A DNA stretch of 64,000 bases, from the NCBI GenBank assembly GCA_008638375.1, contig CM018052.1, positions 9,409,506 through 9,473,505 of the forward strand, read 5' to 3'. This DNA is from Nyssa sinensis. Its lineage: Eukaryota > Streptophyta > Magnoliopsida > Cornales > Nyssaceae. Both the position numbers and the translations under genes were made by a program. Below are positions 37,193 to 60,346 of the stretch, piece by piece. The stretch's first letter is position 1. Each line of letters starts with the position of its first letter. The notes beneath the pieces were generated by a model. It did not search any database. It was not told the DNA's origin and saw only the letters and a program-made list of their open reading frames with translations.

Positions 37193-38111
37193 TTGTTAAC
37201 CCTAGATATTCTTGCACTTTTATTATTTTAATTTCTTCTATCATATGCATTTGCTAGTTAATTCTTGTTTTGTCTCTTTGTAGAGAAAGCTTGTCAAAAT
37301 TGATGATTTAGTGGTGGATTTGGAGCAAAAGAAAAATATTGGGCTTTGAAGTGCTAAAAAAAGTGGAAAACAAGTGATTTTGGGTTAGAAGAGAGGCTTG
37401 ATCCATATATAGGTGGACCATGGCCCATTTTAGCATTATAGGCTTTATTTTGGAACACTTTAGACTCCCTTTTTGGGCCCCTAATGTCTAATGACGGGAT
37501 TTTACTATATTTTCCTGATTTTCTTATTTTGTGGGGGTAATTTTGAAAAAAGGGGGATAATATTGGGAGCTAGGGTTTTAGAAAAGAAGGAAACCGTCTT
37601 AGGGATCTGGACGAAGGGAGAAAGGAAGGAAACGACTCTAAAGAAGAAGATGAAGAACTCCATGGCTATGGTGGTCTCCTCTTCCACTATCATGGGCTAA
37701 GTTTCTCTCATTCCTACGGTTTAGATGAAACCCTAGTCAAGTAATATTGCTTCTCTGTGTCACATCCCCCTTACCCATCCTGTGCGGATTAGGGGCATGC
37801 AACCGGCCAGTTAGGCACCCATCGATTTTTTTTTTTTTTTGAAATCAAAATGCCGACGGTAATCCTAACCACAGGCCATTCATCAGTAACATCCAAGTAC
37901 AATGCATTCAATTAATATAAGTTGCAGCGGAACTAAGGAAATGCATAACACCTTGGCAGAGCCATTAATACATCCATGGTTAACTATTACATCATTGTCC
38001 TACAAAAGATACTAGTCTTAGGTTTCAGTACATCATATTCAAAAATGGAGTTAGGTACAAAAATGGTTAATTCATAAGTTCTTCAAAATAGTTCTCCGGG
38101 TCTCCAACCCG

Positions 38112-39065
38112 CTAATCCTGGTCGTTGGGTCCCTCACCTGAAAAATGTTAGGGAAGGGGTGAGCTTTAAAAAGCCCAGTGAGTAACACGGGTCCCCTGTC
38201 ATGGGTTTCAAACCATTGTTGTTTATAAAACAGGTGGTCGGATCAGACATTTCAGAGGATGTAGTTAAATCCGTATGTTTGAACAATATTTAAAACAAGA
38301 ATACAGTCAAAACATCATAGCAACAAAACAGTTCAATAATGAGCGGAGCAGAACAGTATAACAGGATAACAGTACAGTATGCACAATTTAAATAGTGCAA
38401 TATGCTCATACAGTGTTCAAGACTGAGTTCGGTACCATGAGTCAGTTATTCTTTTAGTAAAAACAAGGATAATTTCATTTCAATACGGAACAGTGAAATT
38501 GGACAGGGTAAAATATAGTCATGCATTGAGTAAAAGCATGGAAGACAGTATATCAGTAGGGACAGTACAGTACAGTATAAAAATACAATAACTAGACGGT
38601 GTACTTATACACCAATTCAGGAGTCTAGGTTACTCACCTTGTGCGGTAACGGGACTTAACTGAGAAGCCTTTCTCTTCTTCTTATCCTTCTTTATCCTAG
38701 AAAATTTAGGAACATTTCGTAAATGTCACATGAATCTTAACTTGGTTTATTTAAAATTCAACCTGAGTTAGACTATCTCGCTGTCTATGTGTTTTTATGA
38801 TAATTGAAATTCACCTTTGCACCCACTCTTTCAGGGTTTCCGTGTCTTCTTGTTTCTTTAGTTTAGCCTCCGCGACCATTGCCTTGGTACGCATCTTGTA
38901 TATAAACGGTCGAACGGAGACTACCTCGGTTGTTTTGGCTATCTTTATGTTCCGTTCGATAATCTTTTGTTGCCATAAGAGTTGTTGCATGAACTCCTGT
39001 TGCTTCTTGTCAGCTAGTCTTTCGGCTTTAGACATAATGGTAAATTTCTTGTTTTTCCCTTCCAT
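38112..39065 (-). CDS. Small spliced LTR-encoded gene, copy in 3' LTR of element A
   Basis: Unknown protein. Predicted exons are 39065-38815, 38696-38638 and 38137-38112, with introns of 118 and 500 bp and splice sites CAAAG|GTGAAT, TTTCTAG|GATAAA, ACAAG|GTGAGT and TTTTTCAG|GTGAGG. The product is 111 residues: exon 1 with NKKFTIMSKAERLADKKQQE, EVVSVRPFIYK and TKAMVAEAKLKKQ, exon 2 with KKDKKKRK (NLS-like), exon 3 ending GEGPNDQD. The 84 residues of exon 1 are identical in the two LTRs of element A; at least one difference there is synonymous. No signal peptide or membrane segment is seen. It could be a regulatory protein acting in the nucleus, but that is inference. A translated unspliced ORF would stop right after exon 1. 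Confidence 0.72.
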
Positions 39066-39886
39066 GACTGGCTTGAGTTTTTATCCTATAGCATGATCCC
39101 AAGAAGTCAGGTTGTGTACTACCTCTAGGCAGTCCGGTTATGAAATTATTTAAGCTTTCATTGGTTAGTTCTTAGTTCATTCGGATGTTATCTAACTTGA
39201 TACAGGGTTAGGGGTATTTTTGTCATTTCACAGTTGTGAAGTTTCGACTCCGATTCGTCATCCAATCACGTGTATAGTCCCCTACGTGTCAGGGTTTCTA
39301 TTGTTTTCAATTTCGTCTCAATCGGACGTTGTTTGGGTTCTAAACAATGTCAGGGGCAATTTGGTAATTTCGTGTGTTGTATTTTTCGGCACTTTATCTG
39401 CTAATACGGACCTCACCGTTGAGTCCGGAATGTCTGACATAGTCAAAATAGACTATCTTTTAGTTGTATTTGGGTTCGAGTATCATCAGAGGTAGTATGG
39501 TCATTTACTCCTACGTGTTTGTATTTTTTCGGGACTTAATTTCCCAAATCGGACTCCACCATTGAGTCCGGAATGATTGAAATAGTGAAAATACACTATT
39601 CGTTTGACTTATTTGGACTTCATTTGACCTATTTATGACCTAGGGGTAATTTGGTCATTTTTATTTAATTAATAAATTAATTAAATAATTTAATTTATTA
39701 TTTATTAAATTATCAGGGGTATAAATGAATTAAAACATCAGAAACTGGGCCACAGTGTAATATTTAGAACTGTTGGGGGGTTGGTTTGCAATTTCCAAAA
39801 GGTTTGAACTGAACCGAAGGGTTCAGTCCTTAAGCAATTGAACCGGACCGGTCCAATCCGGTTCTGACCGGTTCAGGGTAATGTGC

Positions 39887-39905
39887 TGACGTCATGCTGA
39901 CGTCA
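39887..39905 (-). promoter_or_regulatory. Paired TGACGTCA motif in L7
   Basis: TGACGTCA at 39887-39894 and 39898-39905, about 820 bp upstream of the small-gene ATG. Next to it lies an ACCGGT-rich palindromic stretch (CCGGACCGGTCC, at about 39844). A probable bZIP-responsive promoter or enhancer. Confidence 0.6.
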
Positions 39906-41164
39906 GCCCTAGAATTTAAAAGTTAAAATCAGTTATGCTAAAACGACACATTTGGTTTTAAACGGGTTATCCGTTTCTCGGTCGGGTCGGGACCCGACCC
40001 GAAAACCCGATCCATGCCCGACCCGTACTGTTCATCGTCTCCCCCACCGTTTCACCCTACTGTAGCCCTAAAATTCTGGGTTTTATTTCTTCTATTTCGT
40101 GGGGTTTTGTGCATCCATTTTCACTGCTTTCCACCTTAATCGACTTCTGGTAGTCATATTAACAATCTAACATCAATTTGGAGCTTCAAATCGAGCTTAA
40201 TGGCTCTGTTCAAGGCGATAATCCGAAACCTGCAACTGACTCGTGATGGCCCATTTTTGGTCCAAATCACTTGGGGTTTCTTGCGTTGCGACCTACGTGT
40301 GATGGGGTTTCGATCCCCATTTTCATAACTTAGCTTGGTTGCGGTTTCAGTGGGGTTGGGTTTGGAACCCGTGACCTGCAACTCACGGTTTGGGGGTCAA
40401 GGTTGAGGTTTTGGGGTTGCGACCTAGGGTTTTTATGATCCTAGGGAGGTCTATTTCATGTTTTGATCATTAAAAGCTCGGTTGGTTGAGGTCGGATCAG
40501 ACCTGCAACCTCAAGGTTCAACAATGGCGGTTTGCCTACGGGTTGGTGGTTTGGGTAGTTTTATGGGTTCAAATCATTCGTAAACAACCCAGTTTTGATT
40601 ATTAATCTACTACGCATGCATTAACAGTCTTAAATCTATAAAACAGTAGCTAAATAGAGCAGGAAAAATTTTTAAAAAGTTTTTGAATACTGGCCTTTGA
40701 ACAGTGGCCTCTTCACTGTTGAGCTCGAGCAGAAGCTTCAAGGGTTGGATTTGGGTCCCCTCTCAGTCGTGCAGCCCCTCAGTTCCAGCCTCTAGCTTCT
40801 TCTAAGCTCCTTCAATGGATTCCCAAAACTCAAGCTTTCTCTCTCTAACTTCCTTTCTCTAACCCACTTTCTCTCTCTAACTTCCTCTCTACAGTTCTGA
40901 TCTTTCCTCCATGCATAAATGGAGATTGTATATCAATAATCAGATTTCTTTTCTTGATGTTTCATCTCCCCCAAGTGCATGATGGGTTTGCATGCAATTT
41001 GGTTGGGAGGAGATGTAATCATGGTGGGATAGGCATGATGGCTATAGCATAGGGTGATGCATGCTGATGTGTTGCATGCATGGCTATTGGTCACTTTGGG
41101 GAGAGGCCAAATCTGATTTATACTTATATACATATCTTTGTACATATATACACAAAAGTGTTCC

Positions 41165-41227
41165 TAGCCTAGGTGGTAATTTTTTGGTAAACCAAATTTT
41201 TCCTAGTTTGGTCAAGGGATCAAATCC
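41165..41227 (+). other. tRNA-like A/B-box module in L7
   Basis: TAGCCTAGGTGG (41165-41176) matches the pol III A box at all but one consensus position; GGATCAAATCC (41217-41227) is a weakened B box. It runs antisense to the LTR, about 350 bp inside its 5' end. Confidence 0.45.
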
Positions 41228-41549
41228 TCTTGGCCACATTTTTGGTCTTTATCCCATATTTCGGGCTTAGGCCCTGTTTGGCTGCGCATTAATGCAGTTT
41301 CACTGTTTTCTTCTTATCTTTCATTCTGTAGTTTATTTTTCGACGCGGTTTCTTTCAGTCAACTCCTAGTTAGGTTAGCTTCAGTGTCTGAGGGTTCAGT
41401 GACAGTAATCAGTTTCTCAGAATTTTTAACATTTCCTAACATGGGTTTGATCAGTATTAAACAGTTGAATTTAAACAGTTAAATGCCAGATCAGATTTTA
41501 AGAAGAGTTTTTCATTACATAATTTAATAATTCAGTCTGGGGTGTTACA

Positions 41550-41594: not shown

Positions 41595-44500
41595 CTACAC
41601 TCCAGTGAACAACTCTGGGTACAATTCACGCATTTCTGCTTCGCGCTCCCACGTGGCTTCCTCAGTCGTGTGGTTCTTCCATAAAACCTTCACCAGTGGG
41701 ATTACCTTGTTGCGCAAGGTCTTTTCCTTATGATCCAGAATTTGCACCGGTTGTTCCTCATATGACAAATCCTCCCTCAGCTGGAGTGGCTCATGTTCAA
41801 TAACTTGTCCGGGTTCAAGTACACACTTCCTCAACATCGACACATGGAAAACATGGTGTACTTTATCTAGCTCGGGTGGTAGCGCCAAACTATACGCGAC
41901 TGGTCCAACTCTTTTCAGGATCTTGAATGGACCGATATAGCGAGGACTTAACTTGCCCTTCTTCTCGAACCGGAGTACTCCTTTCAATGGTGACACTTTA
42001 AGGAACACAAGGTCACCTACTTCAAATTCCAAATCCTTTCTTCTGTTGTCTGCGTAACTCTTGTATCGGCTCTGGGCCGTTTGTAACCTACTCCGAATTT
42101 TCTGAATCTGTTCAGTGGTTTTTTGTACTAGATCCGGCCCAAGTAGCTTCTGTTCACTAGCTTCAGCCCAGCAGAGTGGAGATCGACACCTCCTTCCGTA
42201 CAGTGCCTCATATGGTGCCATTTTAATGCTGGCCTGATGACTGTTGTTATAGGCGAACTCGACCAATGGCAAATGTTCTGCCCAATTTCCTTTGAAATCC
42301 AGTGCACACAGTCGTAGCATATCCTCCAACATCTGTATTACTCTCTCAGACTGTCCATCCGTCTGTGGGTGATATGCCGTACTAAACTTAAGCTCGGTGC
42401 CGAGTGCCTTCTGCAGGCTTTTCCAGAAACGTGACACAAATCTTGGGTCTCGGTCAGAAACGATGGACAAGGGTGTGCCATGTAAGCGTACAATTTCTTC
42501 AATGTACAACGTGGCTAACCTTTCCATGCTGAAAGTCATTTGTACGGGTAGAAAGTGTGCAGATTTGGTCAATCGATCAACGATGACCCAGATGGCGTCA
42601 AAGCCTTTCGAAGACTTGGGAAAGCCGGATACAAAATCCATGGTGATGTGGTCCCACTTCCATTCTGGAATAGGGAGTGGTTGCAAAAGTCCACTAGGGC
42701 GTTGGTGCTCAACCTTTACTTGTTGGCAACTTGTACAGTGAGTGATAAAATCAGCCACATCCCTTTTCAAGCCGGGCCACCAATACAGTTCCCTAAGGTC
42801 ATGGTACATCTTTGTGTTTCCGGGGTGTACCGTGAACCTTGAAGTGTGGGCTTCCTCCAAAATTTCCTTCCTCAACTTGTCTATCTTAGGCACACATAGC
42901 CTGCCTTGATACCGCAGAATTCCCTCTTGAATATCAAAATCAGTCTTTCCAATTGTCTCTACTTCCTTGTAGATTTTGACTAACTCCTCATCCTGAGCTT
43001 GTCCTGCTTTGATCCGTTCTACCAATGTAGACTCAACCGTTAGATTGGCCAAATATGCCGTACCACCTGGTGGGATCACCTCAATGCCCATCTCGTCCAG
43101 GTCTCGAATCAGCTCCTCTTGGGTAGTAATCATATAGGCAAGATTGCTAGACTTTCTGCTCAAAGCATCGGCTACTACATTAGCCTTGCCAGGATGATAC
43201 TGGATCGTCACACCATGGTCTTTGATTAATTCGAGCCAACGCCGTTGCCTCATATTCAGCTCCTTTTGTGTAAAGAAGTACTTCAGGCTCTTATGGTCAG
43301 TAAAGATCTCACATACCTCCCCATATAGATAGTGGCACCAGATTTTTAGAGCAAATACTACCGCCGCTAATTCCAAATCATGGGTTGGATAATTCTGTTC
43401 ATGTGGTCGAAGTTGTCTAGAGGCGTAGGCAATGACTCTACCGTCTTGCATTAAGACACATCCCAAACCCTTGTGGGAAGCATCACAATAAATGACGAAC
43501 TTTCCCTCCTTGGTGGGAATAGTCAGAACTGGTGCTGTAGTCAACTTCTCCTTGAGTAGTTGGAAACTCCGTTCCTGCTCATCCGTCCAAATGAATGGCA
43601 CCTTGTTCTTAGTCAAGTGGGTGAGCGGCTTTGCTAACTTAGCAAAATCCTTAACGAAGCGTCGATAATAACCTGCCAACTGAAGAAAACTTCGGATCTC
43701 GGTCACGGTGGTTGGTTGAGGCCAATTCAGTATAGCCTCTATCTTATGCGGGTCTACAGCAACACCTTCCTCAGAAATCACATGGCCCAAAAAGGAGACG
43801 CTGGGTAGCCAGAATTCACACTTTTTGAATTTTGCATATAACTTGTGCTCCCTCAGGGTCTGTAACGCCATTCTCAAGTGCCTTTCGTGCTCCTCTTCAC
43901 TCCATGAGTACACCAATATGTCATCAATGAAAACAATGATGAAATCATCCAAATATGTCTTGAAGACCCGATTCATTAAATCCATAAATGCAGCAGGAGC
44001 ATTGGTCACACCAAAAGGCATGACCAAGAACTCGTAATGACCATATCGGGTTCGGAAGGCTGTTTTCGATATGTCAGTATTCTTGACCTTAAGTTGATGG
44101 TATCCAGTCCGTAAATCAATCTTAGAAAACACACTTGCTCCTTGCAATTGATCAAACAGCTCATTGATGCGTGGGAGCGGATACTTGTTCTTCACTGTCA
44201 CTTTATTGAGTTCTCGGTAATCGATACAAAGTCTTAGAGAGCCATCCTTCTTCTTCACAAATAATACTGGCGCTCCCCAGGGTGACACACTGGGTCGGAT
44301 GAATCCCTTCTCTAACAGCTCTTGTAATTGAGCCTTCAGCTCTTTTAATTCTGATGGAGCCATTCGGTACGGGGCTTTAGATACCGGTTGAGTTCCGGGA
44401 ACGAGGTCGATAGAAAATTCAATCTCTCGATCAACCGTCCCACTCGGTAAGTCCTCAGGGAACACATCAGGAAATTCACAGACAACTGGCACTTCTGACA

Positions 44501-46112
44501 ACGGGGGAGTTTGGGCTTGGGTATCCAGAATGCTACACAGGTATCCAAGACAACCTTTCCTTAATAATCTTCCTGCCTGGATGGCAGAGATGAGGTAGGG
44601 TGGAGAAACAACGCCTTTTCCACTAAATACAAATTCGGGTTGCCCCGGGCGTTGAAACAACACCTTCTTCTCAAAACAGTCAATGGTGGCGTGGTTGCGA
44701 GACAGCCAATCCATGCCTAAGATCACATCGAATCCCTTGATGTCCAAGGGTATTAGGTCTACTGACAGCTCTTGGTCCCCAATTTCTACACTACAGTCCT
44801 TCAGGATTTTGGACCCAATCATTCGTTTCCCAGAGGGGGTTTGTACAGACAATAGTTCATTCATAGGTTCAGGTGTTCTATGTAGTTTATCAGTAAACAG
44901 TGGAGATATAAAAGAGTGTGTGGATCCGGAATCAATAAGCACATGTGCAGAAGTTTCACAGATCGGGAGTGTACCTGCTACCACAGTATTGGCAGTAGAT
45001 GTCTCCCCTGGCACTAGGGCAAACACCCTCCCTGGTCGTCCTTGAGGTGCCTTGCCCTTATCTCTGGTGGGGGCTGCTGGAAGGAGCCTCTGTGTCGTAG
45101 CAGTGGTAATCGGAGCTGGGGCTCTTATATCGGGTGGTGGCTGCGGGCAGTCTTTGACCAGGTGTCCCTTTTCCCCGCACCGGTAACATGCACAGGTCAA
45201 CTTGCGGCATTCTCCTGGATGAGACTGTTGACAATGTGGGCACTTAGTCACCTCCCTTGCTTTCTTCTGACCTTTCTCCCCTTTGCCTCGACCTTCAGTT
45301 TTCTGCTTCTTTGAAGGTTGGGATTTCTGGAAACTTTTCCCCTTGTTCTTCCGTCCTTGGTCTTTGAGTTGATTATAGTCCTCCATGTCCTTTTCGATGA
45401 CAAGGGCCTTGTTCAACACATCCGAATAAGTGTATAGCTCAAAAGCAGATACCCTTGTTCGAAGTCCTAGGCGAAGGCCTCCTTGGAACTTCCTTGCCTT
45501 GTCCCTTTCTCCCTGTATTAGAGAGGGGGCGAATCTGGACAGGGCTGAAAACTTTGCAGCATACTGGATCACTGACATCTCTCCTTGCTGCAGATTTGTG
45601 AACTCCTGAATTCTCCTCTCACGGACTGTCGACGGAAAGAACATGCTGTAAAACCTTTCCACAAAACCCGCCCATGTCATAACTGGGTTCTGCCGTTGCA
45701 CCTCTAACCACCAATTATACGCCTCCCCATGAAGCATATAAGTGGCTAGCCTCACCTTCTCCTCCCCGGTACATATTAGAAGTCCAAAAGCTTTCTCCAT
45801 TGCCGTCACCCATTTTTCGGCCTGCTCAGGCTCTGTGACTGTCTCGAAGGATGGAGGTCTCAACTTGTGAAACCTATCCAGTAGTTCGTTGCGGATGCCA
45901 ACTCCAACAGGTGGCACCAGAGCAGGCGGGGGTGGCATAGCTGGGGCTTCAGCCGGGTTATTGACTGGTCCGGTTTGGTTCTGCTGCAGGGTTCTATTCA
46001 ACCCCTCTATCGCTCGAGCGAACTGAGCCAAAGTTGCCCGCATTTCACGTATAGCAGCACTCTCTGTCGGGGCTTGCGGTTCCCTATTGCAGTTCCTTGT
46101 CCGTGGCGGCAT
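41595..46112 (-). CDS. Gag-Pol polyprotein of element A (Tekay-type), intact
   Basis: A single uninterrupted frame of 1505 codons that makes the capsid protein and replication enzymes as one precursor. Order: gag domain about residues 95-230; CCHC zinc knuckle [15 protein letters not shown] from C309; aspartic protease [10 protein letters not shown] with D394; RT with the catalytic FIDD at 728-731; RNase H with [10 protein letters not shown] (D877); integrase with its HHCC region from about 1087 ([10 protein letters not shown]... CTSC) and a DDE core (MDFVSGF, SDRDPRF, DGQSERV); a chromodomain-like tail from about 1452 ([16 protein letters not shown]). No frameshift or stop is present, and all catalytic motifs I can check are intact. 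Expression would start from the split 5' LTR, so this copy may not be transcribed normally. Confidence 0.97.
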
Positions 46113-46294: not shown

Positions 46295-46359
46295 ACCTTG
46301 TCACATCCCCCTTACCCACCCTGTGCGGATTAGGGGCATGCAACCGGCCAGTTAGGCAC

Positions 46360-47033
46360 TGATGCTGCACTTTTTGACTCGCAACACTTGAGGGCTCCGT
46401 GACCTGTAGAACACTCAGAGAGATGATCAGAGGACCACCGGATTGGCTCCGGCGGTAGCCGCTCCGATGCTTAAGTAAGTAAGGGAATTGAAAGACTGTA
46501 TTGAAAGTCAAAGAATGAGCATAAGAATCCAAAGCGTACCTCTAGGGTTTAATATATAAGCCGTGGTTCTCCTAATTTTGATTAGGTTTTGCTGCCACGA
46601 ATATCGGGATTTGATCATCAGAGATTTGCAGTTACCTTGTGGAGCATTGAATCGTAGATGGAGATAACAGTAGATAGTAGTTTCCGTGTTGAAGGCTGTT
46701 TCCTTATTCCCCGCTTAACGGCTGTTAAGGAAACCATATATGCAGTGTCGAATAAATACTGTCCAGAACAGGAGGTCTGGACGATGTACATGAGAATATC
46801 CTGAATGCTCCATCTGTACTGTATGACCGAGTTCATCGGTTCTGAATGATATATAAATAAGAATGCCCCGAAGGCTTATGGCTGCTCTGTATGATAGACA
46901 TATATGAGAATACCCCGAAGGCTTGTAGCTGTTCTGTATGACCGGAATATACGAGCTCTGTAGGATCGAGATTTGTTAATCTGATAGGCACACGCGTCTC
47001 AAATTGATTGGTGTGTCTGTTTATGGTATATCA
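46360..47033 (-). repeat. 3' LTR of element B
   Basis: Plus-strand ends TGATGCTGC...TATATCA. Differences from the other LTR include CACTTGAGG against CACGTGAGG, GCGTACC against GCATACC, and CACGCGTCTC against CACGCATCTC. Confidence 0.97.
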
Positions 47034-47051
47034 GCTACTCCCCCCCCCCGA
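47034..47051 (-). promoter_or_regulatory. Polypurine tract of element B
   Basis: The minus strand shows a long G-run followed by GGAGTAGC directly before the LTR start TGATATACC, the expected site for plus-strand priming. Confidence 0.8.
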
Positions 47052-47106
47052 GCCCTTGTCAAAAGCTAGGGTTTTAACTAGGGTTGAGGGTTTTGTGAAG
47101 AGTCAT

Positions 47107-47243
47107 ACGTTTTGCCTTCCTATTTCTCAAGACGCTGGTTTAACGCGTCATTTATTGCGCAGCCGATACTCGAGAACTCATCATTACTTTCAACCGTTGT
47201 GTCGGCTCGTCTTGGGAGGCTCATATTTCGAATGTGTATATAG
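47107..47243 (+). promoter_or_regulatory. Promoter P1 of the antisense gene in element B
   Basis: A TATA box (TATATAG at 47237-47243, followed by AGAGAGG) lies about 185 bp upstream of the ATG at 47428. The preceding 130 bp is homologous to the sequence before a second TATA box at 49987 (shared GGTTTAA, CATTTATTGC and CGTTGTG). Confidence 0.55.
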
Positions 47244-47427
47244 AGAGAGGGAAAAGCCTTTCATACCTTTCTTCTGCATTTACTTCCACAGTACCAGACC
47301 GCCATTCGACATATCTTGAAGTTTTGGAGGATCCCCGGTGTTCATAACTCTTTCTTGGTTTCAGGTTTGACTTTTAGTCCCCTTCTTCATTCCTTCTTGT
47401 TTGTTTCATCTCTTTCTCTTGTTCGCC

Positions 47428-49335
47428 ATGTCTGGCTTAGAATCACACTCTGGTTTGGGAAGTCCTTCTGAGACTGATCGTCAAATGCAATTAGTGAATG
47501 TTGATGAAAATAGAATGGTAGTTCCTCCCTCTAGTCTGGGGGTCAGGATTGTCGATGCTTTTGATGATCCCCCGAACAGGGCTGGCGAAACCTCTGGTCG
47601 GTCTGATCGCAGAGAAGAGGGTGAGAGTGTAATTACTGAAAGTATGCTGAAGGAGTTATGGGCAAAGTTCAAACTTCCCAAAAATGTCGCTTTCAGGGTC
47701 CCAGATTCTCAAGCTCGCCCGGGCGATGTTAGAGATGGAGAAATCTGTGCCTATCTGGCCTGGTTTGAACTGGGTCTTACACTCCCCTTTCCTGATATAA
47801 TAAAACAATTCTTTTGTTGGTTTGATTTGTGCCCCGCAGACCTGAACCTTAACAGTTGGAGCCATCTGTTGAGCTTTATCGTATTAGGGCATATGAATAA
47901 TGTCGAGGTGTCCCTTGACCTGATCCGTAGCAATATGGATCTAAAACTTCAAAAGGCGGAAGGCCTTTATTACATGTCTTTTGATAGTGGGTTCAGACCC
48001 CTTACTTCTGTGCCCTTCTCCAACAAGACCTGGAAGAAATGGTACTTCTTTATTAAAGGAGGATGGGAATTCAAGGACTTCGAGGGTCAACCTTCCACAT
48101 TCCCTCGAACCACTGGGCCAAGGGGTGAGGTTTAACTTTTCCGTGGCTGCGTTGACTCTGTTTTGTTTGCCAATTTGTTGAACTGATCAATTTCTGTGTT
48201 TGCTTTGCAGTTAAGAGTGCGTGGAAGAGACCAGATTTCTCTCCCGCAATTCAGAAGCAGTATAAGAAGCTTTTGAAGCCCAGTATTAGGGATCATTCTT
48301 CCATTGTCAACCCTGATAAATTAATGGCTGCCAGGGGTAATGTCGAGGAGATAGCTGATAATGTGATGGCTCAGTGGGAGTCCGGGCCACCACCGCCTGC
48401 GGTGGGGGAGGCTTCTTCTCCAGTGGTCCCTCCCATTCCGAAGAAGCGGAGGCTGATTTCGTCTTCTCCCGGGCCTGCTGAGAGGGAGGAAGAGGCTCCC
48501 GTTCCTATCACGGTGGTTCCTCCAATCCCGTCTCGTCGAGCGGGTAAGGAGGCGTCATCATCGGTGGCTCCTGACGTTGCTGGTCAGGGAGCCAAGAAGA
48601 TTCTGAGTGAGTTCTGGGCCAAAAGCCCAGTTAAAATTAAGCCTCAGGCGTCTGGGAAGCTGCTTGCTGACTTGACCGCTCTTCAGGTTAAGGTGAGCTC
48701 GTTAGGACCATATTTTCCCTACCTTTAAGCGTTTCTACTGGTGTTTGAGTCATTTTCTTTGTGTTATGCAGACCTTGCATACCCTTTTTGCTTTGGTGGA
48801 GGTTTCTCCATCTGTGGAGGAGCTCGACCAACTTAGGGCCAATCTGGACGAACTGGGACTCCAGTTGGGTACTGCTCGGTCGGAGGCTCACGATTCTGCG
48901 GAGAAGTTGAAGGAGTGTCAGAACTCCTTGATAATGATGGAGTCGGAGAGGAACCTTGCCGTTGAGCGGGCGAGGAGGTTGCAGGTGGAGATGAACGGCT
49001 TGCGGTACCAGCACAGTAGGCAGCTCGATGCAGCCGTGGAGCAGGCATTGGTGGATAATGAGGAAGAGATGAGGTCGAAGCTGGAAGGAATGGCCCATTG
49101 TTTGATTACGTTTGGGTTTAATAACTTCCGCTCTCGGCTTCTTGCCAAGTTTCCTGACCTAGACGTTTCCTCCATTGTGCCGCCTGGGTCTGAACCTCCA
49201 GAGGTCAACCAGGGCGAAGTGGCTGATGTCCTCCCGGCCGATCCCACGGAAGTGGTTGTACCGACTGAGGTGGTTGATACTGTACCTGCCAAACCTTCTC
49301 CTGTCGTTGATCCTGTTCCTGCTGATCAGGCTTAG
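47428..49335 (+). CDS. Antisense three-exon gene of element B (Tat aORF type)
   Basis: Predicted exons 47428-48124, 48211-48692 and 48772-49335 with GT-AG introns of 86 and 79 bp (AGGG|GTGAGG, TTTGCAG|TTAAG, TTAAG|GTGAGC, TATGCAG|ACC) give 580 residues in one frame; translation stays open through both junctions. The ATG is in GCCATGTC context. The N-terminal half (about residues 70-230: WAKFKLPKNVAFRVPD, AYLAWFELGLTLPFPDIIK, NSWSHLLSFIVLGHM, WKKWYFFIKGG) is the domain often annotated as putative plant transposon protein and found as antisense ORFs in Tat elements. The middle is Pro/Ser-rich with basic patches (PKKRRL); exon 3 is predicted coiled coil (EELDQLRANLDELGLQLG onward). Its role is unknown. 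It is convergent with pol. Confidence 0.8.
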
Positions 49336-49856
49336 GATCCATATTTTGTTATTTTTCAATGTACTTGAGACATACATTTGTTTAATGGAACAGTCTTTTG
49401 GTTAATGCTCGCCTCTTTGGTTATATTGCTTTGTAGCATTTGTGCGTATCTTTGAGTTATGTAGCTCTGTAGTGCCTTAACGTGTAGTTGATGGTAATAA
49501 TTGTTGCAAGTTACCCTGCTCTGGAGTTTAGTGTATACCAGATCAGATTTTCTTCTGCAGGAAGCTGTGTTCCGAACTTCTTTACTTGCCTTAGGCCAGT
49601 AATTGGAGACTTCTGTTTTGAAGTATTTCAAAGCTGACCGTTCTGAATTCGGGGACATAATAATAAATGGATATCTTTGCGGTTGTAGTTTGGTTGATCA
49701 GATCTTCTGTCTCCAGATCTGTTAGAAATCAAGAAACGTCATAGTTGATGGACCTCTGTTGTACACGTGGTCCTGTAAGTGTCAATGACATGGAGAAACC
49801 GTCACATCACATACATGGGAAAGATTAAAAGCCTGTGTATTACGTGTATGGCCCTG
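49336..49856 (+). other. 3' flank of the antisense gene, non-coding
   Basis: AT-rich sequence after the aORF stop. No domain is visible. It probably includes the 3' UTR and polyadenylation region of the aORF and leads into the second promoter-like segment. Confidence 0.4.
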
Positions 49857-49996
49857 CCTTTTGTTTCTCCCGAGAAGGTGGTTTAATACTCCATTTATTG
49901 CACCTCCGCCGTTTGGGATTTCGAAGCTAGCACTTCGCTTAATCGTTGTGACGGTTCAACTGGGTGGCCTTTGGTCTTCCAGTGTCTATATATATG
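49857..49996 (+). promoter_or_regulatory. Second promoter-like copy P2 in element B
   Basis: Homologous to P1 at 47107-47243: GGTTTAATACTCCATTTATT and ATCGTTGTGACGG, followed by a TATA box TATATATATG at 49987-49996. It suggests a duplicated transcription unit. Confidence 0.5.
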
Positions 49997-50094
49997 GAAA
50001 CGAGGGCATATGGTTGTGCTCAACCCTTTTGCTCCCTGAATTGTTTGTAAGAGAGGTTTTTATATGCTGCCGGAGTTCTTCCACTCGTCCGGAG

Positions 50095-50514
50095 ATGATG
50101 GATGATTCCTTGCCTGAGTTAGGAATAATTAAACTGTGGCCAAAAGTTAACCCTCCCCTATTTTCAGTCTCCAAGGAAGGATTGAAGGAGGCACAAGTCT
50201 TCTCGTTTCCTCTGGTATCTAGTCGAGATTTCTCAGATTGGTGGTGGCCCCTCCCTGATTCAACCGAGGCCTGGAGCGTTGGTGATGAAGACGAAGGTGA
50301 GTTGCCTCCTCTTCCTTACGCCCTGTCAGAGACCCTTGCTCCAAGTGGCTGGGGTGAAACAGACGGTGTGAAGAAGAAGATTGAAGGTGGGTTGCCTCCT
50401 CCCGCTTATAACTCGGCAGTGACAACTGCTCTAAGGGAGATGAATGGGGGCCGCCTCCTCCCCTTTCTGACTTGGCAGGAACCCTTGCTTCAATTGGCTG
50501 GGGCGTTATGCTGA
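50095..50514 (+). CDS. Hypothetical ORF downstream of P2 in element B
   Basis: The frame is open from 49861, but the first ATG after the expected start of transcription is near 50095 (MMDDSLPELGIIKLWPK), giving about 139 residues. The sequence is acidic and Pro/Trp-rich, with internal repeats around LPPLPYALSETLAPSGWGE and GGLPPPAYNS. I do not recognise it. It could be a diverged or truncated second antisense protein, or simply open repeat sequence. Confidence 0.3.
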   Translation: MMDDSLPELGIIKLWPKVNPPLFSVSKEGLKEAQVFSFPLVSSRDFSDWWWPLPDSTEAWSVGDEDEGELPPLPYALSETLAPSGWGETDGVKKKIEGGLPPPAYNSAVTTALREMNGGRLLPFLTWQEPLLQLAGALC

Positions 50515-50737
50515 TTACAAAGGTGGAGAATGAAAAAGTCTCCTAAGGCTCAGAGCCCTCATCATCCGTTGGTCATGGGACCAGTGATAGTGATGATGAA
50601 ATGGCCTGGGCACCACTTGATGCAGACTGGGGTTCAGGGTTCCTTCCTTTCAAATGGAGCCGATGAAGGCGGTTTTGAAGGTTTTGGATTTTGTGCCCCT
50701 TTATCATCCCAGGAGAAGAGCCATTATGTTGCCAAGC

Positions 50738-50860
50738 GTAGCTTCTGTAATAGCTTCTGTAATAGCTTCTGTAGTAGCTTCTGTAATAGCTTCTGTAGTA
50801 GCTTCTATAATAGCTTCTGTAATAGCTTCTGTAGTAGCTTCTGTAATAGCTTCTGTAGTG
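50738..50860 (+). repeat. 12-bp tandem repeat array in element B
   Basis: About ten copies of AGCTTCTGTAAT/AGCTTCTGTAGT in tandem. The period is a multiple of three, so all frames are open on both strands (for example TEAITEA on the minus strand), which explains several long spurious ORFs here. Confidence 0.95.
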
Positions 50861-51186
50861 TCTTGGTACTGATGTAAATCTTTTGAGTTATCAATAAAGT
50901 TGAATTTCTTCTTCTCAGATCTGATATTTTCTGTGAATGTGCTCTTTTGAAACTTAAGCACCTTCTAATGCATTGCCGATTGTTCTGAAAATAAATCAAA
51001 AACTTAGAAAAATGCCAGAATCGAAGTACTTCACCTTTGGTTGAAACCATGGTGCTGGTTTGTTTGACAGATAAGTCAAATAATGTAAGTGTCAGATCCG
51101 AGGTATTCCGTTCTAGGAAACTTTAGTTGACAAATGCTCGGAACTTCTACCTTTGGATAGACTGGATCACAGAATCCGCTAGTTGA

Positions 51187-51762
51187 AGATGGACCAGGCT
51201 TTGAAGGCCTGTGCATTAATAGATGGACCAGGCTCTGAAGGCCTGTGCATTAATAGATGGACCAGGCTCTGAAGGCCTGTGCATTAATAGATGGACCAAG
51301 TCATAAGACTTGTGCATTAATAGATGGACCAGGCTCTGAAGGCCTGTACATTAATAGATGGACCAAGTCATAAGACTTGTGCATTAATAGATGGACCAAG
51401 TCATAAGACTTGTGCATTAATAGATGGACCAGGCTCTGAAGGCCTGTACATTAATAGGTGGACCAAGTCATAAGACTTGTGCATTAATAGATGGACCAGG
51501 CTCTGAAGGCCTGTGCATTAATAGATGGACCAAGTCATAAGACTTGTGCATTAATAGATGGACCAGGCTCTGAAGGCCTGTGCATTAATAGATGGACCAG
51601 GCTCTGGAGGCCTGTGCATTAATAGATGGACCAGGCTCTGGAGGCCTGTGCATTAATAGATAGACCAAGTCATAAGACTTGTGCATTAATAGATGGACCA
51701 GGCTCTGAAGGCCTGTACATTAATAGATGGACCAGGCTCTGGAGGCCTATGGATTAATAGAT
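51187..51762 (+). repeat. 33/34-bp hairpin minisatellite in element B, 17 units
   Basis: Units begin AGATGGACCA and end GCATTAAT or ACATTAAT. There are two main types: one with CAGGCTCTGAAGGCCTG (34 bp) and one with CAAGTCATAAGACTTG (33 bp), in mixed order (11 and 6 units by eye). Each type contains its own inverted repeat (CAGGC/GCCTG or CAAGTC/GACTTG). The array lies between the end of integrase on the minus strand and the end of the plus-strand units. Confidence 0.95.
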
Positions 51763-51797
51763 GAATAGTTTTAAGGAAGTAAAAGAAAAAAAAATCT

Positions 51798-54700
51798 TCA
51801 TTGATAATACTTCCGCAAGTGTTCTACGTTCCATGGCCTAGGAACAGGTTTCCCAGTTGTGTCTTCAAGCCAGTAAGTGGTAGGTCGAACGACCTTCGTT
51901 ACTTTGTAGGGGCCCTCCCAATTTGGTGACAACTTTCCCATGGTGGGATCCTTGGTGTTCTGAAAGACTCTTCTTAAGACGAAGTCTCCAACTTGAAAGC
52001 TGACTGTCTTGAGTCCTATCCTGGATTTATTGATCATTCTTTGTTGGTAGGCTTCCATCCTGATGCTGGCCTGATCCCTTCTCTCTTCGAGCAAATCCAA
52101 GTTCTCCATCAGCTGTTGATCATTGGATTCTTGCTCAAAGGCCTCAGTCCTCAGAGTTGGCATACCGATTTCAACCGGAATTACTGCTTCTGTCCCATAG
52201 GCTAATGAGAAGGGTGTTTCAGAGGTGGGAATTCTTCTGGTTGTACGGTAGGCCCAAAGGACTCCTGGGAGCTCTTCTGCCCACTTCCCTTTGGCTTGTT
52301 CCAACCTTTTCTTTAACCCATCAAGGATTGTTCGGTTGGTGACCTCTGCCTGCCCATTTGCTTATGGATGGCCTGGAGAGGCAAAGTGCTGCCTGATGTT
52401 GAGATTTTCGCAGAATGCCTTGAAGCCTTTACCAGTAAATTGTGTCCCATTATCCGAGATAATTACACGTGGTATGCCAAACCTGCAGACAATGTTCTTC
52501 CAGGTGAAGCTTTCGACTTCCTTTTCTGTAATATGCGTTAAAGGCTCGGCTTCGGCCCATTTAGAGAAGTAGTCGATAGCCACCAAGAGGTACTTCTTGT
52601 TTGGAGGTGCTCGTGGTAACGGGCCCACAATATCCATTCCCCATTGAGCAAAGGGCCAAGGACTAGGAATCGGGATGAGCTCGTGCTGAGGCTGGTGTTG
52701 GTACGAGGCGAATCTCTGACATTTGTCACACTTCCGAACATATTCTTTAGCCTGTTTCAGCATGCCGGGCCAGTAGTAACCCTGTGATAGAGCTCGGTGG
52801 GCTATAGTTCTGCCCCCATTGTGATTCCCGCAAATTCCCTCATGAATTTCAGCCAAAACATATTGTGACTCGTCTGGAGCCAAACACTTTAACAGAGGTT
52901 GAGAATAAGACCTCCTATAAAGTTTGTTGTTCAGGATCAGGTACCGAGCTGCTCTGATTCGGATTCTCCTGGCTTTGTTTTTATCCTCTAGGAGGAGCCC
53001 GGATCTTAGATACAGGAGGATTGGGGTCATCCAGCTCTGGGTCTGTTCATCACTTTGAGCAACTGATGCTTCCTCAATGCTGGATCCTGGCTGAAAAGAG
53101 ATTTTAACGGTGGAGTCTGTTTCAGACTTGAGGCGGGAGGCCATGTTAGCCAGAGCATCTGCTCTGCAGTTCTGACTTCTCTCAATCTTCTGGATAGTGA
53201 AAGTCTGGAAAGAATGCTTTAAATGGTTCACCAATTCGGAGTACCGAAGCATCCTGTCATCCTTAATGGCAAACTCTCCCAAAACTTGGCTTACTACCAG
53301 TTGGGAGTCAGAGAAGACATCGAGGTTCTGAGCCTCGCATTCCAGGGCAAGCTTCATCCCTAAGATTAGGGCCTCATATTCAGCTTCATTATTAGAAGCT
53401 CTAAATCCCAGGCTGATTGCTTTTTCCGATGTAAGTCCATCAGGGGACTGTAGTACCAGTCCTACCCCTGATCCTTGATCGGTTGACGATCCATCAATAT
53501 ACAGCAGCCAGGTTCCTGTAGTTTCGGCGATTTGTGCTTCGTTTTGCAATGCCGGGGTGAACTCGACTACAAAGTCAGCTAAGGCCTGCCCTTTAATGGA
53601 GTTTCGGGGTACATATGCTATGTCAAACTCCCCTAGCTCCACAGACCACTTGACCAATCTTCCCGATACCTCGGGTTTCCTCAGTATTGATTTTAGAGGA
53701 TAGGCAGTTGGAATCTCAATTGGATGGGCCTGGAAGTAAGGTCGAAGCTTCCGGGCTGATATGACCAAGGCATAGGCCAGATTCTCTACTTCTGGGTATC
53801 TTTTCTCCGTGTCAAGTAGTGCCCTACTGACGTAGAATATAGGCCTCTGTACTCCTTTGTCCTGTCTGATTAGTGCGGAACTGACCGCGTTCTCAGAGAC
53901 TGCTAGGTACAGGAGCAGCTTTTCTTCTTGTACAGGTTTTGACAGGAGCTCTGGAGAGGCTAGGTACTCCTTTAGTTCTTGGAAGGAATGCTCGCATCCT
54001 TCTATCCATTGCAAAGCCTTGCTGCCCTTTAGAGCTTTAAAGAAAGGTAGGCAGCGATCGGTGGACTTGGATATAAATCTGCTCAATGCGGTGACTCTAC
54101 CGTTCAGTGTCTGAATCTCCTTTCTGGTCTTTGGCGACTTCAGTCCAATCAGGGCTTGGATCTAAGTGGGATCTGCTTCGAAACCTCTTTGAGAGACGAT
54201 GTACCCCAAGAATTTTCCCTTCGTAACTCCGAAGGTACATTTCGAGGGGTTGAGCTTCATCTTGTGCTGTCTGAGGATATCAAAGGTCTGGGCTAAGTGC
54301 TGGAGGTGGCTGCCTTTCTGGAGGCTCTTTACCAGCATGTCGTCGATGTATACCTCCATGGTGCTGCCAAGCAGTGGGCTGAACATCTTGTTCACCAACC
54401 GCTGGTAAGTGGCTCCAGCATTCTTCAAACCGAAAGGCATCACTCTGTAGCAGTAGAGTCCTCTTTCGGTTATGAAGGCAGTCTTTTCCTGATCTGGAGG
54501 GTACATCTGGATCTGGTTGTATCCAGAATAGGCGTCCATGAAACTCATCAGCTCATGCCCTGCAGTGGCGTCAACCAGTTGATCTATTCTCGGCAGTGGA
54601 AAGCTGTCCTTGGGGCATGCTTTGTTGAGGTCTGTATAGTCAACACAGACTCTCCACTTGCCGTTCTTCTTCTTGACGAGCACAGTGTTGGCTAGCCACT

Positions 54701-55085
54701 CGGGATAGAAAACTTCCCGTATCATCCTGGCGTCTAGCAGCCTCTGGACTTCTTCGTCTATAACCCGATGCCGTTCGGGAGCGATCGGTCTTCTCTTCTG
54801 TCTGACTGGGGGGTGATCTGGATCTACCATCAGTTTGTGAGTTATCAGATTAGGATCTATCCCCTCCATGTCCCTGGTTTCCCAAGCAAAGATAGAGAGG
54901 TTGCTCTTCAGAAACCTGACTATCTTTTCTTGCTCGGCAGGCGTAAGGTCTGGGTCGATGTACAAATAATGCCCCTCTGCTTCTGAACTGACCAGTATCT
55001 TGATGGGCTCGCCAACAAGCTTGGCTCGGCTATCACGTCCCCTTGGGCTCAGGGGCTCTTCAACGCCGGATGGGCAATCTTCCAC
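51798..55085 (-). pseudogene. Pol of element B: RT, dual RNase H, integrase (three in-frame stops inside or at its borders)
   Basis: RT: WRVCVDYTDLNKACPKDSFP, MPFGLKNAGATYQRLVN and catalytic YIDDMLVKS are intact. The first RNase H region (ILRKPEVSGRLVKW, YVPRNSIKGQALADF) is followed by a second one with WLLYIDGSS, NNEAEYEAL, FSDSQLVVSQV and RADALANMAS, the dual RNase H layout known for the Tat lineage. Integrase: HHCC region (HEGICGNHNGGRT... CDKCQRF), core MDIVGPLP, ISDNGTQFTG, and a C-terminal GPYKV domain ending VEHLRKYYQ. Stops are TAG at 54162 (between RT and RNase H) and TAA at 52362 (PGHP, stop, ANGQAEV, where CAA is expected). All parts are in the same frame, with no frameshift. Confidence 0.92.
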
Positions 55086-55133
55086 CTCGGGAGTGTGAGT
55101 GAAAACCGGATCCGCACAGTCCCGAGTGTACTG

Positions 55134-55142
55134 TAATTGCTA
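55134..55142 (-). promoter_or_regulatory. TAG-CAA-TTA stop context between protease and RT of element B
   Basis: On the minus strand the protease frame ends AAA TAG CAA TTA. UAG followed by CARYYA is the tobamovirus-type leaky stop context known to allow readthrough in plants. The frame stays open into the RT after the stop, so readthrough would make Gag-Pro-Pol. Confidence 0.5.
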
Positions 55143-55733
55143 TTTTGGAGCTGTCTCCTTGAGGGCAATAGCGTGACATTCTCGTGAGGTTGGCTGACAT
55201 CCTCGGACCGAGTGCATGCTCTGATTGTGGACGTACTTCAGACACTGATGAAGGGTCGAAGTGACCGCCCCTATCTGGTGTAACCAGGGTCTCCCGATGA
55301 TGACGTTGTATGGAGACTTCATGTTCAACACCATGTATTCAGAGATGGTGGTCTTCTGCCCTTCACCTTCCCCAATAGTGGTAGGAAGGTCAACTCTCCC
55401 CAGGGGGGTGCTCAGGTTGCCATCAAAAGCTGCCATTACGGCAGTGGTGGGCTTGACGCTGTCCTGGTCTATGCCCATCCGCTTAAGCGGTTCATAGAAT
55501 AGAATGTTAACTGAGCTGCCAGTGTCGACTAGGACTCTTCTAGTTTCGAAGTTGGCGATTCTGAGGGTGATAACAAGGGCATCACTGTGAGGGCAGTGTA
55601 CCCCTGCTAGATCTTGCCCGGTGAACTGGATCTCTGGCCCTGGCTTGAGCTTCTTTTTGACGTTGGAGACCTGCAAGATGTTTGGGGCGGTTCTGGCCTC
55701 CCGAGCATATCTTTTTCTTGCCCTGTTGGACAT
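55140..55733 (-). CDS. Aspartic protease region of element B
   Basis: Contains the protease signature VLVDTGSSVNILFYEPL with the catalytic DTG and the downstream NVIIGRPWLHQIGAV. It begins with a basic stretch (NRARKRYAREA). It is in the same frame as gag and RT, bounded by TAG codons at 55782 and 55140. The stretch between the gag stop at 55848 and 55733 also translates in a conserved-looking way (NHVIYVLHADSPVTG), so the upstream stops may be recent or suppressed. Confidence 0.85.
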   Translation of the reverse strand: MSNRARKRYAREARTAPNILQVSNVKKKLKPGPEIQFTGQDLAGVHCPHSDALVITLRIANFETRRVLVDTGSSVNILFYEPLKRMGIDQDSVKPTTAVMAAFDGNLSTPLGRVDLPTTIGEGEGQKTTISEYMVLNMKSPYNVIIGRPWLHQIGAVTSTLHQCLKYVHNQSMHSVRGCQPTSRECHAIALKETAPK

Positions 55734-55847
55734 TCCTGTAACAGGGGAGTCAGCATGGAGGACGTAGATAACATGGTTGTTCTACCTCTGAGGCTCGTTT
55801 CGTCCTTCCCGCTGCTCTTGCCTCTGTTCGGGCCTCTGATCTGGCCG

Positions 55848-57503
55848 CTACTGAGGCTTGTCTTCTGGGGGGTTCTGCCTTCCGTCTTGTTTGACGAACT
55901 CCTGAAGACGTCCCTTCTTTATGAGCTGTTCTATCTCATATCGGAGGGTCCTGCAAGTGTTAGTAGTATGCCCATGATCTTTATGGAAATTGCAATACTT
56001 ACTTTGGTCCCGCAGGCTGGGATCTCCTTTGATCGGCTCTGGCCACCTCAGGTTCTCCCGATCTCGGATCTGCCGGAGTACCTGATTCGGAGTGGTGTTC
56101 AAAGGCGTGAAGTTGGTGAACTCCCTTGGTGCGGAGTTGTACACAGCTCTGGGAGCTGTTTTCTTCTCTGGGCTTCTGACCCTCTTTTTGTTAGAGTCTT
56201 TTCTGTGATCCTCCTTCTTATGGTCCTCCCGCTTCGGATTATCCCTCTGGGTCTGATCCTTGCCCTTCTGGGCTGAGCGGTTGGCTTCTTCCAGGTTGAT
56301 GTATTTTTTGGCCCGATCCATCAATGCTGCCATATCGACCGGGGGGCTCTTTGTCAAGGAATCTCTGAAGCCACCTTGGGCAAGCCCGGCAGTAAGGGCC
56401 GCAACCAGGAATTTCGGGCTACAATCTGTGATCTCAGTGAGCTCGGTGTTGAAGCGGGCAATGTAGGCCCGGAGGGATTCCTCCCTGGTCTGCTTAACAT
56501 TCAGCAGGAATTCTGGCCCCCTTCTGAGCCTCCTGCTGGTCATAAATCTATCCAAGAACTGTCTACCGAGCTCGTAAAAGCTGGCAACGGAGTTCGGAGG
56601 GAGGTTGTGGAACCACTTCAGAGCTGTTCCCTTCAAGCTGGTGATGAACGTTCGGCATATGAAAGCATCTGAAGCTCCGTGAAGGGCTATCGTATGCTGA
56701 TAATGAGATAGGTGATCCCCTGGATCTCCAGATCCGTCATAGAGAGTGAATTTGGGCACCACGAACTTTCTAGGCCTCTCTTCGGACATGATGGCGTGGG
56801 TGAACGGAGTGGCTAGTCTTCCGAGCAGCCTGGCCAGTTCGTCTTGCTCTGGAGGGTTCTGAGGTCCTCTTAAGCCGATTGTCCGGTCCATAGACTCGGC
56901 AATCTCCTCTACCCTTCGCGGGTCTCTGAGTCTGACATCTTGTGAACCCTGCCTGACAGCCTCGGCTTCAGGGTAGTAGGGTGGAGTGCACCCTTCGGAT
57001 GGAGGAGGAATCCGAACCGGTGGGACTGGCGCTGCATGATAAGGTTCCTGTGGTGCCGGGGGTGCTCCCGAAACCCTAGGAGTTGGGGCTCGAGTAGTGC
57101 TCCGGTAATGCACGTCAGGGACAAAAGCGGATGTTCCCCAGCCAGGGACTGTTGATGGCTGTGGATCTCGGCCAGCGTGAGCAACGCCTGAGGGGTGCCC
57201 AGACTGGTTAGTGGGGGCCGGCCCACGAAGTTCTTCATTCCCCGTGGCAACCGGGGGTTGCGTTCCTGCAACGAAGTTGACCGGCGGGCTAGGAGAAGCC
57301 GCCGATTGGTTCTGCGTGAGCGTTGCCAGCGTTCTAGTAATGGCTAGCAACTGCTCCTGCACCAGTTCGTTGTGTCGTTTTATTGCTTCGATCTCTTGTC
57401 GCATAGGCTTGGCCGCTGGTCCCCTTGTGCGTAGAGCAGGCGGCTGACGCTGAGCGTTTTGCAAACTCTGAGTATTCTGTCGGGGTCGGAGATTTGGTGC
57501 CAT
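55848..57503 (-). CDS. Gag of element B (Tat-type)
   Basis: 551 residues starting MAPNLRPRQNTQSLQ. The N-terminal third is Pro/Gln-rich. The retrotransposon gag domain follows at about 255-400 (FVVPKFTLYDGSGDPGDHLS, ALKWFHNLPPNSVASFYELG, YIARFNTELTEI), then a lysine-rich linker and the Tat-type zinc-binding motif YCNFHKDHGHTTNTC near 510. It ends at TAG 55848; the same frame remains open toward the protease except for a second TAG at 55782. Confidence 0.93.
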   Translation of the reverse strand: MAPNLRPRQNTQSLQNAQRQPPALRTRGPAAKPMRQEIEAIKRHNELVQEQLLAITRTLATLTQNQSAASPSPPVNFVAGTQPPVATGNEELRGPAPTNQSGHPSGVAHAGRDPQPSTVPGWGTSAFVPDVHYRSTTRAPTPRVSGAPPAPQEPYHAAPVPPVRIPPPSEGCTPPYYPEAEAVRQGSQDVRLRDPRRVEEIAESMDRTIGLRGPQNPPEQDELARLLGRLATPFTHAIMSEERPRKFVVPKFTLYDGSGDPGDHLSHYQHTIALHGASDAFICRTFITSLKGTALKWFHNLPPNSVASFYELGRQFLDRFMTSRRLRRGPEFLLNVKQTREESLRAYIARFNTELTEITDCSPKFLVAALTAGLAQGGFRDSLTKSPPVDMAALMDRAKKYINLEEANRSAQKGKDQTQRDNPKREDHKKEDHRKDSNKKRVRSPEKKTAPRAVYNSAPREFTNFTPLNTTPNQVLRQIRDRENLRWPEPIKGDPSLRDQSKYCNFHKDHGHTTNTCRTLRYEIEQLIKKGRLQEFVKQDGRQNPPEDKPQ

Positions 57504-57559
57504 GGTTTTCCGGTGGGGAAAAAGATGAGTTTACGAATAAAGCACGTAGAGATTAGTCG

Positions 57560-57577
57560 TTCCCACAGACGGCGCCA
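57560..57577 (-). promoter_or_regulatory. Primer-binding site of element B
   Basis: The minus strand reads TGGCGCCGTCTGTGGGAA, 3 bp inside the 5' LTR. This form is common in Tat-type elements. I did not assign the tRNA with certainty. Confidence 0.75.
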
Positions 57578-57580
57578 AAC

Positions 57581-58254: not shown

Positions 58255-58552
58255 GGCACCCATCGGTTTTTTTTTTTTTTTGAAATCAAAATGCCGACGG
58301 TAATCCTAACCACAGGCCATTCATCAGTAACATCCAAGTACAATGCATTCAATTAATATAAGTTGCAGCGGAACTAAGGGAATGCATAACACCTTGGCAG
58401 AGCCATTAATACATCCATGGTTAACTATTACATCATTGTCCTACAAAAGATACTAGTCTTAGGTTTCAGTACATCATATTCAAAAATGGAGTTAGGTACA
58501 AAAATGGTTAATTCATAAGTTCTTCAAAATAGTTCTCCGGGTCTCTAACCCG

Positions 58553-60327: not shown

Positions 60328-60346
60328 TGACGTCATGCTGACGTCA
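60328..60346 (-). promoter_or_regulatory. Paired TGACGTCA motif in L8
   Basis: TGACGTCA at 60328-60335 and 60339-60346, the same 11-bp period as in L7. Confidence 0.6.

Follow-up and report, generated by a model that had tools for sequence, protein, structure and literature searches.

The stretch whose first lines are shown above, here called the window, comprises 64,000 nt of Nyssa sinensis DNA (assembly GCA_008638375.1, contig CM018052.1, forward-strand positions 9,409,506 to 9,473,505). Its minus strand carries an intact chromovirus-type retrotransposon, element A, composed of a 5′ long terminal repeat (LTR), gag-pol and a 3′ LTR, and a small gene with predicted introns lies wholly inside both LTRs, a coding location shared with sag of mouse mammary tumour virus. 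The parts of element A are as follows.

37758..41549, minus strand: 3′ LTR (L7), TGTAACACCC...TGTGACA, 3792 nt, from LTR ends and flanking CAGAG
41595..46112, minus strand: gag-pol open reading frame (ORF), 1505 aa, with C-terminal chromodomain, from ORF and Pfam analysis
46299..46359, minus strand: final 61 nt of the 5′ LTR, split off by a nested insertion
46360..58253, no strand assigned: second retroelement nested in the 5′ LTR, splitting it between 46359 and 58254
58254..61991, minus strand: main part of the 5′ LTR (L8), from LTR comparison

The two LTRs share 99.2% identity (29 mismatches in 3738 aligned positions) and have the TG..CA ends of chromoviruses, along with a primer-binding-site-like sequence, TGGTATCAGAGC, which adjoins the 61-nt end of the 5′ LTR, and a 5-bp target duplication, CAGAG, at both flanks of the element. 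Pfam domains follow the chromoviral order of gag, zinc knuckle, protease, reverse transcriptase, RNase H, integrase and chromodomain, although the chromodomain (E 5.7e-4) and integrase core, positioned as expected, score below the Pfam cut-offs. The lineage is likely Tekay/Del, a label that we presume from a preliminary description of this DNA, made from the sequence alone, and from features of its LTRs.

Gene models of the LTR copies

The gene models in the window, with the exons and introns of the L7 copy given individually, are as follows.

38815..39065, minus strand: L7 exon 1, 251 nt, coding
38697..38814, minus strand: L7 intron 1, 118 nt, GT-AG, phase 2, exactly absent in the relatives L068–L071
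38638..38696, minus strand: L7 exon 2, 59 nt, encoding a lysine/arginine-rich tail
38138..38637, minus strand: L7 intron 2, 500 nt, donor GTGAGTAA, final ~96 nt conserved in other LTRs
38112..38137, minus strand: L7 exon 3, 26 nt to the stop, optional
58553..59506, minus strand: L8 gene copy, exons 59506–59256, 59137–59079 and 58578–58553, protein identical to that of L7
3165..3951, minus strand: L2 gene copy, exons 3951–3701, 3592–3537 and 3190–3165 (predicted exon model)
16491..17846, plus strand: decayed copy, exon 1 16491–16771, exon 2 16912–16962, second acceptor before 17821

The preliminary description had located the gene in L7, L8 and the solo LTR L2, and it was present there at the positions given. 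The L7 and L8 genes differ at 4 of 954 nt. Joining 251, 59 and 26 nt in L7 yields a predicted protein of 111 aa, and joining 251, 56 and 26 nt in L2 one of 110 aa. The L2 introns measure 108 and 346 nt, those of L7 118 and 500 nt. The exon lengths described earlier for L2, L7 and L8 (251, 56–59 and 26 nt), and phase 2 of intron 1 in all four window copies, match these models exactly. The decayed fourth copy announced there was found at 16.5 kb on the plus strand; its exon 1 is longer by ten codons and interrupted by one in-frame TAA, and its exon 2 also contains a stop. The length change of exon 1 among the window copies is thus a multiple of three, and the intron lengths vary freely. The LTR sequence around the gene had been called strongly diverged; divergent it is, yet it can still be aligned at about 60–77% identity in places.

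Retention of intron 2 adds GE followed by a stop in both L7 and L2, and most copies of other families end within exon 2, L039 being one that reads on. Because reading into intron 2 stops almost at once and most other inspected copies stop in exon 2, the predicted coding part is exons 1 and 2, and exon 3 is optional. Of the three-exon gene first described, exons 1 and 2 thus stand as coding, the necessity of exon 3 does not, and a further, non-coding exon upstream is likely.

Selection on the encoded protein

Exon 1 of L7 and L2 differs at 83 of 249 aligned bases, distributed over the three codon positions as 22, 9 and 52, a pattern that points to the sense strand as coding. Fifty-eight of 83 residues are identical, compared to a mean of 34.2 and a maximum of 45 in 5000 neutral simulations, 97% of which contained a stop. 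One antisense frame of exon 1 (window 38814–39065) likewise runs without a stop in L7 and L2, with 51/83 identical residues against 59/84 in the sense frame. Such a frame can arise when antisense third positions coincide with sense third positions, and an antisense gene was rejected on the codon-position pattern and on two stops in the 16.5-kb copy.

Searches of the 1.0-Gb genome of this plant considered only the best-scoring copies. A whole-gene search gave 40 scored copies of 97–100% identity (the best 40 of 2576 candidates). Among relatives of the 16.5-kb protein, 127 of 150 had no stop in the matched stretch and 23 had one (the 150 top-ranked among 3683 candidates; ranking was by protein words, which favours intact copies). 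The ORF is thus conserved in many family copies, as are the additional and extra ORFs (aORFs/eORFs) of plant elements.

The ratio of nonsynonymous to synonymous divergence (dN/dS) was calculated for 59 of 64 copies; those left out were L001, L002 and L009, which are the window copies again, L054_3660 and L040_6452. Codons containing stops were skipped and not mended. After removal of 13 pairs with dS below 0.02 and 458 with saturated dS, 1240 of 1711 pairs were usable; these have common ancestry and are not independent. Median dN/dS was 0.23 at dS 0.02–0.1 (98 pairs), 0.14 at 0.1–0.3 (396), 0.16 at 0.3–0.6 (497), 0.14 at 0.6–1 (235) and 0.12 above 1 (14). The maximum was 0.83, so that all 1240 pairs lay below 1. 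Third positions changed most throughout, and second positions changed more than first positions in every dS class (183 vs 96 in the lowest), an excess that we attribute to a small number of residue switches.

Introns were recognised in 50 of the 59 copies, and their divergence (K) was determined in 160 sampled pairs by a loose rule that set the first acceptor ~10 nt too far in seven L7-family copies. Over its first 300 nt, intron 2 diverged at about the synonymous rate (median K 0.30, median dS 0.35), and dN was below the divergence of intron 2 in 145 of the 160 pairs and below that of intron 1 in 123. Judged by these substitution patterns, the LTR gene is under purifying selection. The preliminary description had proposed such selection and a dN/dS comparison among many copies as its check; the retention of 58 of 83 residues, where neutrality predicts 34.2, and the medians of 0.12–0.23, well below 1, agree with the proposal. 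Intron 1 (window 38697–38814 and its relatives) also evolves slowly, perhaps as a regulatory or structural RNA.

Relatives lacking intron 1

In L056, the relative at C5, the frame continues past the position of the donor. Comparison with L050, L024 and L028 indicated that intron 1 is missing exactly between CGTCGNAG and GCTAAGGAAGG, and that the donor of intron 2 is kept. Searched with a 31-base probe spanning this exon junction, the genome gave nine matches, of which eight are exact and one has two mismatches, L056 being among the nine; the reversed probe had none. Six of the nine places (L059–L064) have an exon 1 of the L050 type and cluster as one clade within the intron-bearing copies in a tree built without L001, L002, L009 and L063, the last being the same place as L056. 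The pairs L059/L061 (98.7%) and L060/L062 (97.7%) each look like one duplicated region. The other three (L065–L067) have a much more diverged exon 1; together with L040 at 6452 (plus strand), which also has no intron 1, they are deeply diverged relatives that share about 50% identity with the common form of the protein.

For the L7 family, the equivalent probe had four matches (L068–L071), two exact and two with two mismatches, and its reversed form again none. These copies are colinear with L7 on either side of a 118-nt gap; their frame continues into exon 2, and intron 2 is retained. Three are open and one has a stop in exon 1. Two of them sit 14 kb apart on one strand, a spacing possible for the LTRs of a single element. 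Other same-strand pairs of the L7 family are spaced 8545 and 8531 nt, and element A, without its nested insert, 8547 nt.

In both families, the flanks of the intron-1-less copies are colinear and the borders are the predicted GT..AG. Since a 351-nt stretch of L7 offers about 557 possible microhomology deletions of 60–250 nt, it appears unlikely that two families both lost exactly the predicted segment by chance. The simplest source of these copies would be RNA that was reverse-transcribed after splicing had removed intron 1, and intron 1 is thus likely spliced from LTR RNA. The earlier claim of an intron-bearing gene inside an LTR gains from these relatives, which lack intron 1 at the junction that had been predicted.

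Position in the LTR and possible leader intron

Twenty-two gene copies, from 20 stretches hand-picked among the 150 scored relatives, were used to place the gene in the LTR. The LTR-start motif lay 2301–2610 nt upstream of the ATG in 15 of them (2484 nt in L7, 2526 nt in L2) and was not found in the other seven, which include L056, with only 2499 nt of upstream sequence. Two further features of L7 are as follows.

41116..41150, minus strand: TATA-like cluster of the LTR, kept in L2 and L3
39086..39087, minus strand: proposed 3′ splice site (AG) of an intron in the 5′ untranslated region (5′-UTR), 20 nt before the ATG, suggested by upstream sequences

TAG or CAG occurs within about 25 nt before the ATG in all 17 copies inspected, mostly after a branch-point-like sequence. 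AG lies at most 40 nt before the ATG in 63 of 64 copies; AG being a frequent dinucleotide, this test carries little weight. The donor-like AG/GTAAA was found 551–889 nt past the LTR start in 8 of 12 copies. An additional 5′-UTR intron with its acceptor directly before the ATG is thus likely.

The donor and acceptor of intron 2 occur also in LTRs without exon 1, which suggests that intron 2 may have its own role in the RNA leader. The last ~96 nt of intron 2 (window 38138–38233; TTACTCACTGGGCTT..AAGCTCACCCC..TAACATTTTTCAG) are among the best conserved parts of the LTR, with matching ends in the window at 2044, 27850, 30733 and 34224. BLAST similarity stops at, or a few bases from, the 3′ splice site of intron 2, in gene-less LTRs too.

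Predicted protein

The predicted protein has 84–111 aa, an isoelectric point of 10, predicted helical structure and a basic tail. Removal of intron 1 brings this tail into frame as RIKKDKKKRKAS in L7, RLKEKKRKAPFI in L2 and RIRADKGK[K/T]PQ or RLRKEKGKGKAP in others, and anchored patterns recognised it in 47 of 59 copies. The AlphaFold model is a single long helix of modest confidence (mean predicted local distance difference test score 72.7, predicted template modelling score 0.37). No Pfam family scored above the cut-off, DUF2014 giving a sub-threshold match only (E 0.013), and a PDB sequence search returned no match. Relatives were not found in viral contigs or in bacterial and archaeal genome contigs, and a protein collection repeatedly gave the same three ENA proteins, at 76–90% identity; few plant sequences are contained in any of these collections. 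A nuclear role may be read from the lysine/arginine-rich tail.

Discussion

LTRs are usually treated as control regions and not as coding DNA, and a selected, intron-bearing gene inside them would depart from this view. The gene of element A lies in both LTRs, its frame and phase-2 intron 1 are conserved in several families, its dN/dS is low and its intron 1 has been lost exactly. A gene in a retroelement LTR is likewise known from an animal retrovirus, mouse mammary tumour virus, whose sag encodes a membrane superantigen. No sequence relation between the two was found by Pfam above its cut-off or in the PDB, and unlike sag, the present gene has a coding part that would be split by at least one intron inside the LTR. 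The aORFs and eORFs of plant Ty3/gypsy elements, including the 5′aORFs of Tekay, are also described as extra conserved proteins without known domains, some with a predicted nuclear signal; in the parts of these reports available to us, they are long uninterrupted ORFs of the internal region before or after gag-pol (PMC7264820, PMC11728184), whereas the present gene is small, intron-bearing and wholly inside both LTRs. As far as these sources go, surveys of extra ORFs applied a limit of 250 codons (PMC6317226) or a minimum length of 300 (PMC11728184). A 251-nt exon escapes surveys with such size limits, and surveys confined to long ORFs would miss a conserved element protein. The passages covered on Del LTRs describe conserved and variable zones and mention no gene (PMC4029996). 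No plant gene inside an LTR was described among the literature matches listed (titles and abstract openings, with subscription journals thinly covered), in keeping with the earlier statement that no plant counterpart was known.

HIV Rev is a small basic protein that is complete only after splicing and that serves unspliced HIV RNA. CERV of the element Cer1 is required for the export of Cer1 genomic RNA, according to the part of the report seen (PMC10309623). In both systems, a protein comes from spliced RNA, the genomic RNA must stay unspliced and the role is nuclear, as is proposed here. No LTR encoding is described for CERV or Rev in that part (PMC10309623), neither has a sequence relation to the present protein that we could find, and the RNA role is in our case only proposed. 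Splicing of retrotransposon RNA also yields a second protein, a short GAG, in the sunflower elements Tyran and Varan; there it takes place within gag-pol, whereas the present exons and introns sit in the LTR (PMC7730604, seen in part). The same passages report alternative splicing of expressed sunflower elements (PMC7730604), and Tekay is under-represented among expressed elements (4/34) in the portion consulted of another study (PMC9784723).

Considering these results, we propose the following scenario. RNA initiated in the LTR would run through a 5′ non-coding exon and then exons 1 and 2, and removal of intron 1 would swap an immediate in-frame stop for the lysine/arginine-rich tail. Because introns survive in most of the copies inspected, the RNA that is reverse-transcribed is likely unspliced as a rule and would usually leave the nucleus in that state. 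The protein, complete only after splicing, may help the export or packaging of unspliced RNA in the manner of Rev and CERV, and copies without intron 1 may be occasional failures of this process. We give a probability of about two in five to this reading, in which a selected, LTR-transcribed and spliced gene encodes a predicted basic, helical nuclear protein acting on the element's own genomic RNA. Rev/CERV-type RNA handling would thus be the single most likely function, at the same odds and by analogy, with silencing, transcription and chaperone roles about as probable. A wider version, in which plant chromoviruses encode a Rev-like circuit entirely within their LTRs, the factor comes from solo LTRs as well as from elements and failures are fossilised as intron-less LTRs, is less probable and is put forward tentatively.

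The gene may be real, conserved and spliced and yet have another job, namely suppression of host silencing, control of LTR transcription or chaperoning of nucleic acids; taken together, these roles have somewhat less than an even chance. The same sequence evidence holds for them, a basic helical protein would suit any of them, and the unrelated Tekay 5′aORF proteins are, in the passages covered, predicted to be nuclear and suggested to act in RNA silencing (PMC11728184). However, no such role alone accounts for a tail that would depend on splicing of the element's own leader. Alternatively, phase 2 turns the donor into a stop in the three families compared, and AGG stands at both borders of intron 1, so that the gene could be read as a one-exon ORF of 84–94 aa ending at a conserved stop, with the donor-like AGGTAA/AGGTGA being Arg-stop and the intron-1-less copies arising by microhomology deletion between AGG triplets. 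We consider this quite unlikely and set it low on the exact loss of intron 1 in L056 and L068–L071, that is, at the predicted site in two families where ~557 deletions were possible, with the frame kept into the conserved tail.

Two introns would suit a fragment of a host gene recently captured by one element family, though the gene is present in deeply diverged LTR families with saturated dS, at a similar place in the LTR, and has no Pfam family above threshold; on this evidence, capture seems very unlikely, though a host relative may have escaped a genome search that covered the best-scoring copies only. Conservation of the LTR as DNA or RNA and not as protein would fit the other conserved LTR blocks, up to 77% identical between families, and the conserved intron 1. 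It is contradicted by the codon-position pattern, by a dN/dS that stays below 1 in every one of the 1240 usable pairs and by the length change of exon 1 that preserves the frame, and we regard it as extremely unlikely.

Several observations weigh against the RNA-handling scenario that we prefer. Intron 1 is itself conserved (K 0.087, against a dS of 0.35 and 0.30 for intron 2, in the 160 sampled pairs), and dN was not below its divergence in 37 of the 160. L7 has no donor-like AG/GTAAA, and 35 ATGs stand in it between the presumed start and the gene; the putative 5′-UTR intron, if real, would remove them. Intron 2 is retained in L068–L071 and L056, and the RNA that was copied was therefore, on this scenario, only partly spliced. 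Exon 1 is absent from two LTR groups of the window (L1/L3 and the group at 34–36 kb), and the gene is therefore dispensable to some elements. Furthermore, no binding domain was found in Pfam or the PDB, and visual inspection revealed no canonical export signal.

If the scenario holds, reverse transcription must usually take unspliced RNA, intron-less LTRs would be a natural record of the exceptions and solo LTRs could still supply the protein. Control of plant retrotransposons by an accessory protein thus becomes directly testable.

Other features of the window

2781..6477, minus strand: solo LTR L2, CTTAG at both flanks

An older LTR (start 9634, end 1559; window 1559–9634) is split by solo LTR L2 (6477–2781), with CTTAG as the target duplication. 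Tandem repeats of ~134 bp at 6478–6924 and 34918–35229 occupy the expected place of the gene in two LTRs without exon 1. The retroelement nested in element A (46360–58253) has gag-pol-like ORFs on the minus strand and contains an array of ~34-bp tandem repeats (window 51153–51835).
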